Assembly: GCA_017302835.1 (NCBI GenBank)
Contig: JAFLCC010000006.1
Location: 62,001-126,000, forward strand
DNA length: 64,000 bases
Reading direction: 5' to 3'
Source: Deltaproteobacteria bacterium
GTDB lineage: Bacteria > Bdellovibrionota > Bdellovibrionia > Bdellovibrionales > Bdellovibrionaceae
A program made the translations under genes and the position numbers. Each line of letters opens with the position of its first letter. The first letter of the stretch is position 1. The notes beneath the pieces are model-generated. The model saw only the letters and a program-made list of their open reading frames with translations, had not been told where the DNA came from and did not search any database. This document shows positions 3,142 through 44,514 of this stretch, piece by piece.

Positions 3142-4347
3142 TTAAAAAAGCGAAGTTGAGATTAATTTGGATTGATCATTCAAGTAGTCTTTATATTTTT
3201 TTAAGAAGGTATGGTAGTTGTCATCACTGTTGGAATTTTTAGTTAGCGACATCTCTTTCTCTACGGTATCAAGAGCAGAGTCATACTCAAATCGAGCAAG
3301 TTTAACCTGATTCAATGGATTGTTTTTCGGAGTTTCATTTAAGTAAGTATCAAATCTTTTTTTAGAGCTAAACCAATTCCAAGTGATATCTAAAAATGTA
3401 ATTTTCAAATCTCCATTGAATAGTTGATTTGGCTTTATTAAGTCCCTTTTTTCGATTTCAAAAAAAGGTTGAATTGGCAGCCAATTCATTTCATTGAAAA
3501 CTTCTAAAAGTTGAGGATTTTTAAAAATTTTCTTTGGTTCCGAGAGCTTAATTTTATATCCACTCACTTGATCAACGGCAGCTAAAAACTCATTACCTGG
3601 AATAGAGATATTAAAAAGTTTTCGATAGAACGGCACTCGAACGTCGATGGGACTTTCGAACCCAATTTCAGATAGGGTATTGTGGACAAGATGAGCGCAA
3701 TTATCATTAAAAAAATCATAGTTAAAAGTTTCATGATTTTCTATTATTTTTTTATTTTGCTTATTTAAAAAACCGATAACTCGGTTTAACACTAAGTTAT
3801 TAATAGGAATTTTAGCACACCAGGTTTCTCTTCCAAAATTCATTGCCGAATCGTAACCTAGAACAGTTTTTGCGAAATCAAGTTTGCTGTTTAATGTTTT
3901 TTCATATTTTGTTTGATGAAATTCTACTCCTTTAAATGGAGATGAGTTTGCCATTTTTTCGAAAGTGAGTTTAAAATTTTCATCATTCAAAGTTTGATTT
4001 GGCGACAAGTGGCCATTAAAAATTTTTTCAAATCCCTCAGTGGCTAGCCAGTTAACATTTTTTATAAATGGATTTACACTCACTAGGACGTGCTGATTTT
4101 GATTTTGTTTTTTATCGCATTCCTTTAGTTGCGGAAAGGCGTAGTTAGGATCTAAGCAAGCTCCCTTTATTAAAAGAGCGATATGTCCTGAGGGGAGTTC
4201 TGTGGGGGCGCCAACTCGATTGACCTGTGTTGCTAAACAAACCCCAATATATTTCGAGTTAATTTTTTCGAAAAATGTAAATGGATAAGCTGAAACCGAG
4301 AACATAAAAAAAACAAAAAAGAAAAACATTTTATTAAGCTTCTTCAT
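3142..4347 (-). CDS. Secreted protein with permuted papain-like H...NC signature
   Basis: A 401-residue protein with a clear signal peptide (residues 1-20, a phenylalanine-rich hydrophobic core ending in SVSA), so it is exported. SGHIALL places a histidine at residue 55 and DNCAHLVHNT places a cysteine at 217. This His-before-Cys order is typical of circularly permuted NlpC/P60- or LRAT-like amidohydrolases and resembles the middle domain of the convergent large gene next door. The C-terminal 170 residues are lysine-rich with no recognised domain. Hydrolysis of peptidoglycan or a lipid amide/ester is possible but unproven. No strong ribosome-binding site precedes the ATG. The family is not firmly identified. 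Confidence 0.6.
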   Translation of the reverse strand: MKKLNKMFFFFVFFMFSVSAYPFTFFEKINSKYIGVCLATQVNRVGAPTELPSGHIALLIKGACLDPNYAFPQLKECDKKQNQNQHVLVSVNPFIKNVNWLATEGFEKIFNGHLSPNQTLNDENFKLTFEKMANSSPFKGVEFHQTKYEKTLNSKLDFAKTVLGYDSAMNFGRETWCAKIPINNLVLNRVIGFLNKQNKKIIENHETFNYDFFNDNCAHLVHNTLSEIGFESPIDVRVPFYRKLFNISIPGNEFLAAVDQVSGYKIKLSEPKKIFKNPQLLEVFNEMNWLPIQPFFEIEKRDLIKPNQLFNGDLKITFLDITWNWFSSKKRFDTYLNETPKNNPLNQVKLARFEYDSALDTVEKEMSLTKNSNSDDNYHTFLKKYKDYLNDQSKLISTSLF

Positions 4348-4480
4348 ATGTAACTCTAAGTCTGAATATAAACCTTATCCGCTATGCTCTGGCTATATTA
4401 TTACGCATTTTTTGTTTTGAGTCAAAAACCATTCGATAAGAGGGTAGGCCAGTATGGATTTGGGGAATGATCCACAAGAT

Positions 4481-4522
4481 CTGTTATGAAAATCTTTCCA
4501 AAGTACCTGATTTTCATAACAG
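4481..4522. repeat. 14-bp perfect inverted repeat downstream of glnN
   Basis: Arms at 4481-4494 (CTGTTATGAAAATC) and 4509-4522 are perfectly complementary with a 14-base loop. It lies 32 bases beyond the glnN stop on the transcribed strand. There is no T tract, so it is either a 3'-end stabilising hairpin, a T-less terminator, or a protein binding site between glnN and the gene at 3142-4347. Confidence 0.55.
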
Positions 4523-4553
4523 ACGGAATGAGTTAAAATACTAAGACATCATA

Positions 4554-6779
4554 CTAAGACAAGGAATTCGTGAATAACATTTCTCTGTACTTTGGTAAAG
4601 GCCAGAAGTCATCAGAGACCAATCTTTCCGCAGCATCACAAGCGTCTCTCAACTTAAAGCTCAATGGTTGAACTTCAGAAGCTAAACGCTTCATTTTAGC
4701 GGTTTCGTCATGACCTTCTCTGACAGAATCAGTAAGTCTGATCAATTCATCCTGCAAAGACAAAATAGAATCAAAAACTTGTTCTAACTTGTTGGTTCTA
4801 GATTGATGATGCTTCTTCAAAGAAGTTAAGTTCAATGACTGCTGAGTATGAGCCAATGCGGTGATCTGTTTTTCAACAGATGGGATTACCAAAGTTTGAA
4901 CCATTTCAAGAAGCGTATCGATTTCAATATCAATGGTTTTCACATATCGTTCCACACTGATATGATAACGGCTCATAATTTCTTCTGTGGATAAAACATT
5001 TGTTTTGGTTAAAAAGCTAGAGGCTTTTTCATCTTTAAAAACTTCGAGTGCTTCAGCTGTTGAATTTAATATAGGCAGACCACGTCGTTTAGCTTCTTCT
5101 TTCCATTCTTGAGAATAACCATTTCCATCAAATCGAACTTTATTAGACTCTTTTAAATACTGACGAGTTAACTCCATCACAGCTTCGTCTCGAGATCCCT
5201 TAGTTTTTAGTAAAGTCTTTAACTTTTCAGTGGCTTCTCTGAAAGTATGAGAGACAGCTGAGTTTAAAATCGTCATGGGAATTGAAACGATGGCAGAAGA
5301 TCCTACGGCTCGGAATTCAAATTTATTTCCAGTAAACGCAAATGGAGACGTCCTATTTCTATCCGTATAATCCTTAGAAATATTTGGAATTTTACCAACG
5401 CCCAAGTCAATAATTTGTTGGTCTGTGGCCTGTGCTGATTTGCCTTGTTCAATTTCAGTACAAATTTTTTCTAACATGCTTCCCAAAAACACAGAGATAA
5501 TAGCCGGAGGGGCTTCATTGGCGCCCAATCTGTGATCATTTCCGGGAGAGGCGATAGAAGCTCTTAGCAGAGCGGCATGGTCGTGGACTGCTTTTAAAAC
5601 AACAGATAATACAGTTAAAAATCTGAGGTTTTGGTGAGGTGTTGTTCCGGGTTCTAAAAGGTTCTCGCCTTTATCATTTGAAAGACTCCAGTTGTTATGT
5701 TTTCCGCTTCCGTTAATTCCAGCAAAAGGTTTTTCATGAAGCAAACAAACAAAATTATGTTTTAAAGCCACTCGTTTTAAAACATCCATAGAGAGGGTAT
5801 TGTGATCGGCAGAAATATTTACATCTTCAAAAATAGGAGCTAATTCAAACTGACTTGGAGCCACTTCATTGTGTCTTGTTTTTGCTGGTATTCCTAATTT
5901 AAATAATTCAAACTCAACGTCCTGCATGTATTTTTGAACTCGTGAAGGGATTGAACCAAAATAATGGTCTTCAAGTTGTTGACCTCTTGGAGAAGAAGCA
6001 CCTAGGAGAGTTCGGCCTGTCATGATAAGATCAGGACGTAAAGAGACAAAATTTCGATCTACAAGGAAATATTCTTGTTCTGCGCCCAAGGTGGCATTGA
6101 TTCGCTTCACATCCACATCGCCAATCAGTTTTAAAAACTCACAAGCTTCGTGACTTAAAGATTCTAAAGATCTTAGAAGAGGGGTTTTGCAATCAAGAGC
6201 TTGGCCATGATAACCAAAAAACACCGTAGGGATGCAAAGTGTTTTGCCACCTTCGTCTTCAACAATAAAGATAGGTGAAGAAGGGTCCCAAGTCGTGTAA
6301 CCACGGGCTTCAAAGGTAGATCTCATCCCGCCAGAAGGAAAGCTAGAGGCATCAGGCTCACCTTGAATTAATTGTCCTTCAGTAAAGCGTTCGATAACTC
6401 GTAATTCAGAGTGGTAAGAGGTTTGAATCGTAATGAAGGCATCATGTTTTTCAGCGGTTAAACCCGTCATCGGTTGAAACCAGTGACAAAAGTGAGTAAC
6501 CCCTTTGGCAACAGCCCATTCTTTAACCGCAGAAGCAATGGATTCGGCTGTTTCTTTAGGAAGTTTTTTTCCATGCTCAAGGGTTTTAAGTAAGTTCTGA
6601 TAGGCATCTTTAGGGAGTTTTTCACGCATTTGCGCTAATCCAAAGGTCATCGAACCAAAAAACTCAGAAACGGGACTAGTGGAAGAAATGGGTCGTTCAA
6701 CATTGATTCTAGGAAAGTTGAGGGCTGAAATCAAAGCTTGTGAACGTGGACTGGCGTTGGTTGAATTAACCGAAGACAT
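4554..6779 (-). CDS. glnN: Glutamine synthetase type III
   Basis: ATP-dependent ligation of ammonia to glutamate, cytoplasmic. The 741-residue length and the sequence match the GlnN (GS III) family, which is much longer than GlnA. Characteristic blocks are KTRHNEVAPSQFELAP and GINGSGKHNNWS in the middle of the protein (ammonia/glutamate-site region) and a long C-terminal helical extension. The start at 6779 (MSSVNST) is preferred because AAGGAG lies 5 bases upstream; a longer reading from 6809 would begin inside the leader. It is monocistronic, followed by the inverted repeat at 4481-4522. A GTTCT/AGAAC dyad just upstream of the ribosome-binding site could be an operator, but this is weak. 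No glnA, glnB or amtB is adjacent. Confidence 0.95.
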   Translation of the reverse strand: MSSVNSTNASPRSQALISALNFPRINVERPISSTSPVSEFFGSMTFGLAQMREKLPKDAYQNLLKTLEHGKKLPKETAESIASAVKEWAVAKGVTHFCHWFQPMTGLTAEKHDAFITIQTSYHSELRVIERFTEGQLIQGEPDASSFPSGGMRSTFEARGYTTWDPSSPIFIVEDEGGKTLCIPTVFFGYHGQALDCKTPLLRSLESLSHEACEFLKLIGDVDVKRINATLGAEQEYFLVDRNFVSLRPDLIMTGRTLLGASSPRGQQLEDHYFGSIPSRVQKYMQDVEFELFKLGIPAKTRHNEVAPSQFELAPIFEDVNISADHNTLSMDVLKRVALKHNFVCLLHEKPFAGINGSGKHNNWSLSNDKGENLLEPGTTPHQNLRFLTVLSVVLKAVHDHAALLRASIASPGNDHRLGANEAPPAIISVFLGSMLEKICTEIEQGKSAQATDQQIIDLGVGKIPNISKDYTDRNRTSPFAFTGNKFEFRAVGSSAIVSIPMTILNSAVSHTFREATEKLKTLLKTKGSRDEAVMELTRQYLKESNKVRFDGNGYSQEWKEEAKRRGLPILNSTAEALEVFKDEKASSFLTKTNVLSTEEIMSRYHISVERYVKTIDIEIDTLLEMVQTLVIPSVEKQITALAHTQQSLNLTSLKKHHQSRTNKLEQVFDSILSLQDELIRLTDSVREGHDETAKMKRLASEVQPLSFKLRDACDAAERLVSDDFWPLPKYREMLFTNSLS

Positions 6780-41660: not shown

Positions 41661-41687
41661 AAATCTTTTAGAATGAAGGGGTTATGA

Positions 41688-43892
41688 ATGATTAAAAAAA
41701 ATGGTTTTAGTCTTACAGGAGTTCTTATTGCCACCGGTATTGGGGCCCTCATTTTTGGATTTATTGCAGATATGGTTATTTACCAGTATAAAGATCAGAA
41801 ACATCTTTCACAAAAATTAGAAATGACAGATTTTGCAAATACACTGATAGCTACCTTTGCAAAACCTGGAAACTGTACTTGTCAATTTATCAACAATGCA
41901 ACAAATCCAAATTTGGCAAATTTTGGAGCCCTTCATTTTGATAGCACCAACGTTTCAGGAACTGAGAGTATCTCGGTGAATAAACTATTTTCTGGATGTT
42001 TGGGTGGTGCTAATCCGCCAATTTTACTAGCGGCCAACAATCAACCTCTGCATGGATCGCAAGACCTTATTGTGGACACGGTTAAATTGATCAATCTGAA
42101 ACCAAGTGGAGGTGGAGCTAATCCTAATGATTGGCAAGGACAATGGCAGGTCATCTTCAAAGTGGCCTCAGGATCGTTAAATAAGCCAAGTCCTCCGGTA
42201 ATGGTAACTCAAAAATTTACCATTGATCCAACAGTTCCTACGGTGGCATTAATTAGCTCTTGTAATGGAATTTCATCGGGGACAGGAACAACCAATTTTT
42301 TAGCTAAATGGAGTGGGATCACAGGAATGCTTATGGATTCAGGAGTGTATGAGGATCCCTTGTTAAAGAAAATAGGGATTGGAACCACCACCCCTACCAA
42401 TCAGCTTGAAATAGTTACAGAAGGGCCACCCTTTCAAACTCGAAGTACGATCTCTACTTATTATTCTGGCGCAGGTCCACATTATGGGGGGTCCTTTTTG
42501 ACAAGAGAAGCAAGGGGAACTATGGCTGCCCCAACAGCTGTTCAAACAACAGACCAGCTAGGCTATTATGCTTTTCAAGGTTATGACGGCACTGGTTTTT
42601 TCCCGAACACTAATGTCACTGGGATAACATCCTATGCAACTGAAAATTGGACACCCGCCTCACGCGGTAGTAATTTGGCCTTTTTAACAACTGCAAACGG
42701 TTCTTCGATAGCAAATATTAACATGACGATCGCTAGCAATGGTAACGTCGGGATTGGAACTAGGACCCCAGATGATACTTTGGAGGTAGTTTTTGGTTCA
42801 GGCAGAGGAATCACGGCTACTAAATTTGGTCAAGTTGGTGCGAGGGGAGGCGCTGTCCAAGTGCGAGGATCTCGCGGTACCCAAGCGGCGCCATCAGCCC
42901 TATTAGCAAATGATTACCTTGGCTGGGTTTATGGAGAGGGTTATTCCGGTGCTGGGTTCACGTCCCATGCGACGCCTACAGGTATGGCTATAGAAACAAC
43001 TGAAAATTGGAATGCAACAAACAATGGATCAAGGCTTTCTTTTTTCACGATTCCCAATGGAACAGCAAATGGGCTCGAACGCATGACAGTGCAAGAAAAT
43101 GGCAACGTCGGTATTGGCACAACCACCCCTCAACAGAAATTGGATGTCAATGGAACCATTCGATTTGGACCTGGAGGCGGAATGCTTCAATCTGTTCCTG
43201 TTGGAAATTTTGGCGGAAAGGAAGCTGTATTGACCGTTGCAGATGGACTTGGTGGAGCCAATGATGAAATTTGGATCGGCCCCAATACGGGGGGATACAT
43301 TGGACATGTCCAAATTAATGCTTCAACCATTCACATGAATAACTCTAATGCTGGCGGCGGTTTTATTTTAACTGGCGATAAGGTTGGAATTGGCACAGCC
43401 GCACCAGGCTTTAAACTTGAGGTGAATGGAACGGCTTATGCGGCAGGAGCGGCTGGGGCCTTGTCAGACTCAAGACACAAACAAGGGATATTGCCACTGT
43501 CTGACGATGTCCTTGATCAGGTTTTAAAGCTGAATCCCGTAAAATTTGAATGGATTAATCCAAAAGATAAAGGGATGCAGGGCACACAAATGGGCTTTGT
43601 GGCTCAAGAGGTGCAGCAACTATTTCCATCAATGATTCTTACAAGTAGCAATGAGGAAAAAACTTTGGGAATAAAATATAACGAAATGACAGCTTTATTT
43701 GTAAAGGCCTTTCAACAGTTCTTTCAGTTGTGGATGAATGATGTTGAGAAAAAAACAGATGATATTTTGAGGTTTGATACGGCTCTTGAAAACATGAGGA
43801 CTGAACTTGAACAGGCAAAACAGGACAATTTGATTTTAAAAAACTATATTTGCAATAAAGATCCAAAAGCAATTTTTTGTAGTGGCCATTAA
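41688..43892 (+). CDS. Pilin-like / tail-fibre chimera with peptidase S74 chaperone domain
   Basis: A 734-residue surface protein. Residues 1-30 are a type IV prepilin-like leader (KKNGFSLTGVLIATGIGALIFG); cleavage would follow Gly6, but Glu at mature position 5 is replaced by Gly. Residues 210-590 hold four fibre repeats around GIGTTTP at about 230, 354, 474 and 567, with spacing near 120, 120 and 93. Residues 590-690 are an intramolecular chaperone of endosialidase (S74): LSDSRHKQGI and MGFVAQEVQQLFPSM; a C-terminal coiled coil follows. Bdellovibrio makes related mosaic trimeric fibres for prey recognition. Ends in a strong terminator. Confidence 0.88.
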   Translation: MIKKNGFSLTGVLIATGIGALIFGFIADMVIYQYKDQKHLSQKLEMTDFANTLIATFAKPGNCTCQFINNATNPNLANFGALHFDSTNVSGTESISVNKLFSGCLGGANPPILLAANNQPLHGSQDLIVDTVKLINLKPSGGGANPNDWQGQWQVIFKVASGSLNKPSPPVMVTQKFTIDPTVPTVALISSCNGISSGTGTTNFLAKWSGITGMLMDSGVYEDPLLKKIGIGTTTPTNQLEIVTEGPPFQTRSTISTYYSGAGPHYGGSFLTREARGTMAAPTAVQTTDQLGYYAFQGYDGTGFFPNTNVTGITSYATENWTPASRGSNLAFLTTANGSSIANINMTIASNGNVGIGTRTPDDTLEVVFGSGRGITATKFGQVGARGGAVQVRGSRGTQAAPSALLANDYLGWVYGEGYSGAGFTSHATPTGMAIETTENWNATNNGSRLSFFTIPNGTANGLERMTVQENGNVGIGTTTPQQKLDVNGTIRFGPGGGMLQSVPVGNFGGKEAVLTVADGLGGANDEIWIGPNTGGYIGHVQINASTIHMNNSNAGGGFILTGDKVGIGTAAPGFKLEVNGTAYAAGAAGALSDSRHKQGILPLSDDVLDQVLKLNPVKFEWINPKDKGMQGTQMGFVAQEVQQLFPSMILTSSNEEKTLGIKYNEMTALFVKAFQQFFQLWMNDVEKKTDDILRFDTALENMRTELEQAKQDNLILKNYICNKDPKAIFCSGH

Positions 43893-43900
43893 AGACTCGT

Positions 43901-43932
43901 GTAAAAATGACGACGATAACGTCATTTTTACT
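43901..43932 (+). terminator. Terminator after the fibre gene
   Basis: Perfect 12-bp arms (GTAAAAATGACG / CGTCATTTTTAC) with a seven-base loop, nine bases after the fibre stop codon; the T-rich right arm provides the U tract. Confidence 0.7.
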
Positions 43933-43991: not shown

Positions 43992-44514
43992 TTGTGCCAA
44001 GTGGTGGCAGAGTCTGATCTGAGGAGTTATATTGCTCTTTATCTGGATCAAGAAGTTGCGAGAGAAGGCTTGGTTCGAAACTTACCTTCTTTTTCTCGAT
44101 TTCTTGAAGTAGCTTCGCTTTGTAACGCTGAACAAGTTGATTTTACAGCTATGGCAAATGATTCTCAGGTTAAAAGGACAACGGTTCATGAATACTTTCA
44201 AATCTTGAAAGACACCCTAATCATTCATGAGCTTTGTGCCTGGCAAGTGGCAAAAAAAAGAAAACCCGTGGCGAACTTAGCAACAACAGGAGGTTGATTT
44301 CATTTTAGATGGGAAGTATTCCATCGAAATCAAATCGGGTCCTCACCTGTCTAGCAAAGATATTTCTAGTTTGGTTATTTTATCTAAAGAGAAAATTATT
44401 AAAAAATTTTTCATAATTTATACGGGAGAGTCAGAGCAAAGACTTGGACCAAAGGGTATGATTCAAGCGGTTCCTTACCAGAAATTTTTAACTGAAATCT
44501 TGCCTCGGCTTTAG
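43992..44514 (+). pseudogene. Remnant of a DUF4143 AAA ATPase
   Basis: Two pieces in different frames. Bases 43992-44297 encode SDLRSYIALYLDQEVAREGL... to TVHEYFQILKDTLIIHEL, which is the helical linker of DUF4143 ATPases. Then, in another frame from about 44286 to 44514, QQQEVDFILDGKYSIEIKSG... to FLTEILPRL encodes the C-terminal nuclease-like half (VDF...EIK). The N-terminal AAA domain and the segment between the two pieces (roughly 90 residues in intact relatives) are missing. It is a decayed gene. Such ATPases are often mobile in accessory regions. Confidence 0.78.

Follow-up and report, generated by a model that had tools for sequence, protein, structure and literature searches.

The locus analysed here raises the question of what a protein does that starts like a pilin and ends like a phage tail fibre. 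The gene lies in the genome of a member of the Bdellovibrionaceae (GenBank assembly GCA_017302835.1). The whole stretch of DNA that was analysed, called the window below, comprises 64,000 nucleotides of contig JAFLCC010000006.1 (positions 62,001 to 126,000). An earlier note, made from the letters of the window, had described a prepilin-like N terminus, four spaced fibre repeats and a self-cleaving S74 domain in one protein, and had proposed display of the fibre through or at a type IV pilus or type II secretion system (T2SS). Our analysis followed the protein from its leader to its tip, then through its genome and its relatives. The coordinates of the gene and its parts are collected in Table 1.

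Table 1. Features of the fusion gene and its borders (positions in the window).
Feature	Position	Strand	Basis
Whole gene: pilin-fibre-S74 fusion protein, 734 aa, ATG start	41688..43892	+	ORF list and translation
Ribosome-binding-like GAAGGGG, 6 nt 5' of ATG	41675-41681	+	read from sequence
Leader peptide MIKKNG, predicted PilD cut after Gly6	41688..41705	+	Gly(-1) in 60/61 relatives; register with PDB mature pilins
Pilin module, residues 7-195: alpha-1 helix (about 9-57) and four-stranded antiparallel sheet (127-195)	41706..42272	+	AlphaFold2 model; family profile
Cys63	41874..41876	+	invariant column, 48 sequences
Cys192	42261..42263	+	invariant column, 48 sequences
GIGTTTP loop 1, residues 230-236, fibre shaft begins	42375..42395	+	MAT-type capping-loop motif
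Shaft module 1, residues 236-358	42393..42761	+	likeness to module 2; region aligns to MAT crystal structures
GIGTRTP loop 2, residues 355-361	42750..42770	+	motif
Shaft module 2, residues 358-480	42759..43127	+	Bd1334 (8oml, 8on4) alignment; PHROG 9942
GIGTTTP loop 3, residues 475-481	43110..43130	+	motif
GIGTAAP loop 4, residues 567-573	43386..43406	+	motif
S74 domain, residues 593-649, with Ser593 (codon 43464-43466) as predicted autocleavage site	43464..43634	+	Pfam PF13884; SDSRHK motif
Chaperone C-terminal tail, residues 650-734, probably coiled coil, shed once cut	43635..43889	+	analogy with S74 proteins
Terminator-like hairpin AAAAATGACG-ACGATAA-CGTCATTTTT	43903..43929	+	read from sequence

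Results

Prepilin leader and pilin module

The protein begins with MIKKNG followed by FSLTGVLIATGIGALIFGFIADMVIYQ. There are two lysines, a glycine at -1, a phenylalanine at +1 and a glycine at +5, and the predicted mature start after Gly6 reads FSLTG. The pattern of a class III signal peptide is present, consisting of a short charged leader, a terminal glycine and about 20 hydrophobic residues (MIKKNG, then FSLTGVLIATGIGALIFGFIADMV). The score of the fusion protein itself against Pfam N_methyl is 11.5 bits and lies under the curated cut-off of 21.2, which is a detection threshold and no biological criterion. A member encoded in the window's own genome (C14) reached 22.0 bits in the genome search and 18.3 bits by itself. 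Glycine at -1 was found in 60 of 61 relatives of the pilin module. At position +5, the 61 members carry Glu (36), Gln (13), Gly (6) or other residues (6); Glu5 is typical of filament subunits and is missing in GspK-type tip pilins, hence it does not define minor pilins. Because of the near-invariant glycine, the frequency of Glu5 and the same-genome member over the N_methyl cut-off, the leader is more than a chance likeness. The prepilin-like N terminus of the earlier note was thus borne out.

The whole fusion protein, used as query against the genome contigs, found no relative, whereas the pilin module alone did. With residues 1-194 as query, five members were obtained in the window's genome, and 31 of 100 relatives also gave matches. 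A profile built from 48 members detected the family in 120 of the 141 genomes of the order. When this profile was compared with all PDB sequences, type IV pilins made up 12 of the 13 matches, and profile position 6 was in register with residue 1 of the mature pilin chains. It also picks up the pseudopilins and the major pilin of the window's genome. Cys63 and Cys192 are invariant in the 48-row family alignment, and a disulfide between them is probable from this conservation. Further members of the family bear glycine-rich or other tails, which indicates that the pilin module is a general carrier.

The AlphaFold2 models, which are single chains, gave a helix at residues 9-57 and a four-stranded antiparallel sheet with a mean pLDDT of 85.3 for the pilin module and a pLDDT of 88.7 for that of a relative. 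This predicted secondary structure agrees with that of a pilin. Foldseek with the pilin-module model returned no significant match among solved structures. A second structure comparison was weak, every Z being below 5: its best match was a T2SS pseudopilus (XcpGHIJK, Z 4.4), and the other pilin chains among the top structural rows were S. sanguinis PilB and PilA and a Thermus competence pilin. A fold search with the model of another family member did not point clearly to pilins either. The pilin assignment was made without leaning on the fold comparison. Judged by its relatives in sequence, the N terminus belongs to a large family with a conserved prepilin leader and pilin module.

Fibre shaft and S74 chaperone

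Behind the pilin module, there are four copies of the motif GIGTxxP, at residues 230, 355, 475 and 567, compared with an average of 0.003 in shuffled sequences of the fusion protein. They are spaced by 125, 120 and 92 residues, close to the values of about 120, 120 and 93 noted before. Between the loops, modules 1 and 2 share 48 of 123 residues (39% identity) and are diverged copies of one sequence. The earlier note had read the spacing as duplicated adhesion modules. The motifs themselves are best read as capping loops of a trimeric beta-helical shaft, with two duplicated modules between them. The shaft matches the crystal structures of the mosaic adhesive trimer (MAT) fibres of Bdellovibrio, namely 8oml (Bd1334, E 5e-10), 8on4, 8ond and 8ol4. 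Phage tail-fibre families also match it (PHROG 9942, E 9.6e-28). By sequence likeness, the shaft is closest to the crystallised Bdellovibrio MAT fibres.

The S74 domain at residues 593-649 scored 53.5 bits against a cut-off of 22 (Pfam PF13884), in agreement with the earlier reading. Its SDxxxK motif is intact as S593-D-S-R-H-K (593-598). Self-cleavage at Ser593 is predicted from this motif and from the homologue Bd3182, for which autocatalytic S74 cleavage at S782 has been published (PMC10769870). In Bd3182, the location in the bdelloplast was abolished by a serine-to-alanine change (PMC10769870).

Surroundings of the gene

According to the sequence, the upstream MFS gene ends 27 nt before the fusion gene, and transcription could read through from the one into the other. 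The neighbours tested in the window are cellular and encode arginyl-tRNA synthetase, MFS, TatA, a U32 peptidase and an M74 endopeptidase. Among the flanking genes checked, no pilus gene adjoins the fusion gene and no phage gene was found. A short ORF directly 3' of the fibre gene (43992-44297) gave a partial match to DUF4143 and is probably the remnant of an ATPase gene.

Pilin-borne and Sec-exported fibres in the same genome

The earlier note had proposed a search of the genome for other genes with the same leader and an S74 domain, and this search was productive. The pilin module is joined to a fibre in three proteins of the window's genome, the 734-aa protein, L007 and L010, all with glycine at +5 (read by eye). 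L007, encoded elsewhere in the genome, is a paralogue of 609 aa. Its pilin module is 74% identical to that of the fusion protein, the shaft module that both have is 66% identical, and the S74 regions agree in 30% of residues; the S74 motif of L007, SLKKFK, has lost the aspartate. L010 is composed of 463 aa with a pilin module and a fibre and is devoid of S74. Its tip was compared with the tip of a Sec-type MAT located 2.4 kb away, and 59 of 129 residues were identical (46%). Canonical Sec-exported MATs are also present in the genome (L042 and L043), in which a signal peptide is followed by NPGVSYQGRIFKPDG.

With regard to the machinery, the genome has a single prepilin peptidase gene of the A24_N (PilD) type, the genes after it resemble pilM, pilN and pilO by eye, and several ATPases of the T2SSE family are encoded. 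A T2SS is also encoded, which counts against pinning the filament to a type IV pilus.

Three further loci were observed during the genome search. L063 (1839-4955, G000:C7) contains an ORF of 1039 aa with an N_methyl-type start (25 bits in the genome search) and no other Pfam match, which by its sequence may be another very large modular pilin. L064 (3221-6069, G000:C9), in the window's genome, contains three tandem pilin-like genes of 356, 282 and 303 aa, one of them without Glu5. L045 (1-4878, G000:C10) is composed of a fibre part (1-1365), recombinase-like and transposase-like ORFs and an S74 remnant (3955-4878); a canonical fibre gene seems to have been interrupted there.

Distribution of pilin-S74 proteins

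When S74 genes were followed upstream, 31 distinct pilin-S74 proteins (15 + 6 + 10) were collected from many genera, an S74 alignment serving as query in the last genome scan. They originate from several families of the order, one Oligoflexia MAG and two MAGs labelled Pseudomonadota. Among cultured bacteria, Bdellovibrio sp. qaytius (CP025734) encodes a pilin-S74 protein of 593 aa (L083, C1:1149069 of G034). The joining of a pilin-type anchor, a MAT-like fibre and S74 in one protein, which the earlier note had seen in one gene, is strongly supported, with N_methyl and S74 both over the curated cut-offs within one ORF in several relatives. The glycine at +5, to which the same note had drawn attention, is real in this protein and fits a tip subunit, but it is no constant of the class, since Glu5 was read by eye, as were all position-5 counts for this set, in 8 of the first 15 pilin-S74 proteins. 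Separately, an N_methyl score of 32.4 bits marks the classical prepilin start of an S74 protein from an Alphaproteobacteria MAG (L185, 15-2195); if the bin is clean, it is a pilin-S74 fusion outside Bdellovibrionota.

The genome G037 was taken as B. bacteriovorus HD100 because a Bd1334 fragment matches it with 100% identity. Its S74 genes number 13, as in the MAT paper (PMC10769870). None of the 13 has a pilin module, and all 13 have a start of the signal-peptide type. The MAT study may not have met the pilin class because HD100 has none.

Three-gene operons and exchange of tips

In three species of the window's genus, a cluster of four genes is conserved: three short pilin-S74 genes and a gene for a 200-aa protein (L204, 1448-5116; L205, 1562-5280; L206, 1475-5288). 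The 200-aa protein ends with VNGRHWVKVK and gave no match to Pfam or PHROG; it may resemble a phage intramolecular chaperone. At position +5, the first pilin of each cluster has Leu or Gln and the other two have Glu. Three tandem pilin-S74 genes are also found in L120 (1352-5880; 494, 524 and 490 aa) and L123 (514-6296; 641, 643 and 638 aa), where the genes are adjacent or overlap by a few bases and have similar lengths. By analogy, these arrangements suggest that the products of three-gene operons form heterotrimers, because one subunit without Glu5 beside partners with Glu5 is the pattern of GspK with GspI and GspJ (PMC5207764).

A tree of the S74 domain was constructed from 15 pilin carriers and 22 Sec carriers with 99 usable columns. 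The two kinds of carriers interleave, and 10 carrier changes are needed, with no direction assigned to them; the well-supported branches force at least five. In no bootstrap tree did either carrier class appear as one group. The carrier label was not more clustered than shuffled labels, which required 12 changes on average and were as low as the real labels in 79-82 of 500 shuffles. The interleaving indicates that tips were swapped repeatedly between pilin and Sec carriers. The place of the window protein itself on the tree is unsure because of its long branch.

Discussion

We consider it probable that the fusion protein is a modular minor type IV pilin, which would hold a trimeric recognition fibre of the phage or MAT type at the tip of a type IV pilus, like CofB and TcpB. 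The analysis shows how the protein is built, that its leader is conserved, that its pilin module forms a family and that tips were swapped repeatedly. Cleavage by PilD, trimerisation, the location at the pilus tip, adhesion and a ligand are inferred. The pilin end would be the carrier module, which would be put into the inner membrane by Sec. Its leader would be trimmed after Gly6 by the single prepilin peptidase of the genome, and the module would then dock at the start of a pilus. Glycine instead of glutamate at +5 would fit a filament-starting subunit, for which no partner is needed above it. Three chains would wind into the beta-helical shaft with S74 driving the trimerisation. S74 would then cut itself off at Ser593, leaving the freed shaft as the tip for recognition. 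Beneath the trimeric fibre, the three pilin modules would together cap the pilus as a homotrimer, the arrangement proposed for CofB and TcpB, and extension of the pilus would bring the fibre into contact with prey or surfaces. The roughly 30 relatives, some of them in three-gene sets, suggest by their sequences that swappable phage-like fibres are mounted on pili.

The filament might instead be the T2SS pseudopilus or another short filament, in which case the fusion protein would be one of its pilin-type subunits and the fibre would act in the periplasm or at the secretin mouth. A pseudopilin cluster (partly identified by eye) lies on the same contig with a T2SSE ATPase (C6:34375), GspK likewise lacks Glu5 (PMC5207764), and the XcpGHIJK model was the best, although weak, structural match of the pilin module. 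However, this T2SS cluster already has its own pseudopilin set. A genome with several modular pilins that are unlinked and differ in their tips is also easier to reconcile with display than with a single conserved cap for secretion, and no T2SS tip is known to carry an S74 fibre. Such a secretion role is thus unlikely.

It is still less probable that the prepilin look is only a matter of descent and that an uncleaved anchor tethers the fibre to the inner membrane. The N_methyl score under the cut-off, the missing Glu5 and the lack of adjoining pilus genes agree with it, but an uncleaved anchor does not need the glycine at -1 that nearly all members retain, nor would it account for Glu5 in 36 of the 61, and a fibre held at the inner membrane would be unable to reach the surface. 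The plain membrane anchor was dropped owing to the conserved glycine. That a phage tail-fibre gene landed by chance behind a pilin start, leaving a functionless prophage remnant, is the most improbable of the explanations, even though phage tail-fibre PHROGs match the shaft and phages commonly carry S74. The remnant was dropped on account of the housekeeping-type neighbours, and the frame open across 734 codons, the paralogue L007 and the same architecture in 31 proteins of many genera also speak against it.

With the display of the fibre on a type IV pilus as the preferred reading, a wider picture can be put forward tentatively. Bdellovibrio-type bacteria may possess a second class of phage-like recognition fibres, which would be mounted on pilins where the other class has Sec-exported MAT bases, and tips would pass between the two. 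In some species a heterotrimer from a three-gene operon, composed of one pilin without Glu5 and two with it, may crown a three-pilin tip complex that would be extended and retracted with the pilus.

Comparison with known systems

Modular pilins are known, and in the survey by Raynaud et al. (2021, PMC8179133) a pilin with S74 (IPR012902-IPR030392, N_methyl and S74) is among the 15 most frequent architectures. The survey interpreted S74 as possibly giving the pilus a peptidase activity (PMC8179133). In the present protein, S74 sits behind a MAT-like shaft, and we interpret it as the chaperone for the assembly of this fibre. This study thereby offers another reading of an architecture that the survey listed as a possible peptidase (PMC8179133). 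In the part of the survey considered here, no description was found of the pilin-module family, the three-gene operons or the swapping of tips with Sec-type MATs (PMC8179133). Among the open-licence papers searched, none joining the pilin-S74 architecture and MAT fibres was found, and an earlier notice elsewhere is possible.

The MAT proteins of Bdellovibrio bacteriovorus HD100 (Caulton et al. 2024, PMC10769870) share with the fusion protein the GIGTxxP-type loops, the C-terminal S74 with SDxxxK and shaft modules homologous to Bd1334 and Bd2133. On the other hand, they start with a signal peptide and a conserved beta-rich N-terminal domain of about 130 aa, whereas the fusion protein has a prepilin leader and a pilin module instead. 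Although the shaft is shared, membership of the MAT class was dropped because the MAT N-terminal domain is absent and the pilin module stands in its place. No surface anchor for the fibres is named in the MAT paper, which notes that an interplay with type IV pili is possible (PMC10769870). A natural MAT-type shaft with an S74 tip on a pilin is a concrete and testable link between MAT fibres and pili. It bears on prey recognition by the pili of Bdellovibrio-type predators and on what holds MAT fibres on the predator surface.

The homotrimeric TcpB and CofB are located at the tip of T4b pili (PMC9565799), and TcpB initiates the pilus without needing Glu5 (PMC5207764). As predicted for the fusion protein, they are large minor pilins that place a trimeric, beta-rich C-terminal module at the tip of the pilus (PMC9565799, PMC5207764). 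In contrast, their tip domains are unrelated and have neither S74 nor a GIGTxxP shaft, their genes lie in the pilus operon, and wild-type TcpB has Glu5 where the fusion protein has Gly5. The Kil tip complexes on the Tad pili of Myxococcus (PMC12075869) resemble the present case as predator pili with exchangeable tips of three pilin-like proteins with extra domains. They differ in that the pilus is of the Tad type and the tip is a heterotrimer of KilL, KilM and KilN, with no mention of an S74 fibre (PMC12075869). The three-gene operons lend themselves to the question of how a three-fold fibre sits on a helical pilus. Modular pilins and MAT fibres on another base were known before, and the fusion protein joins both.
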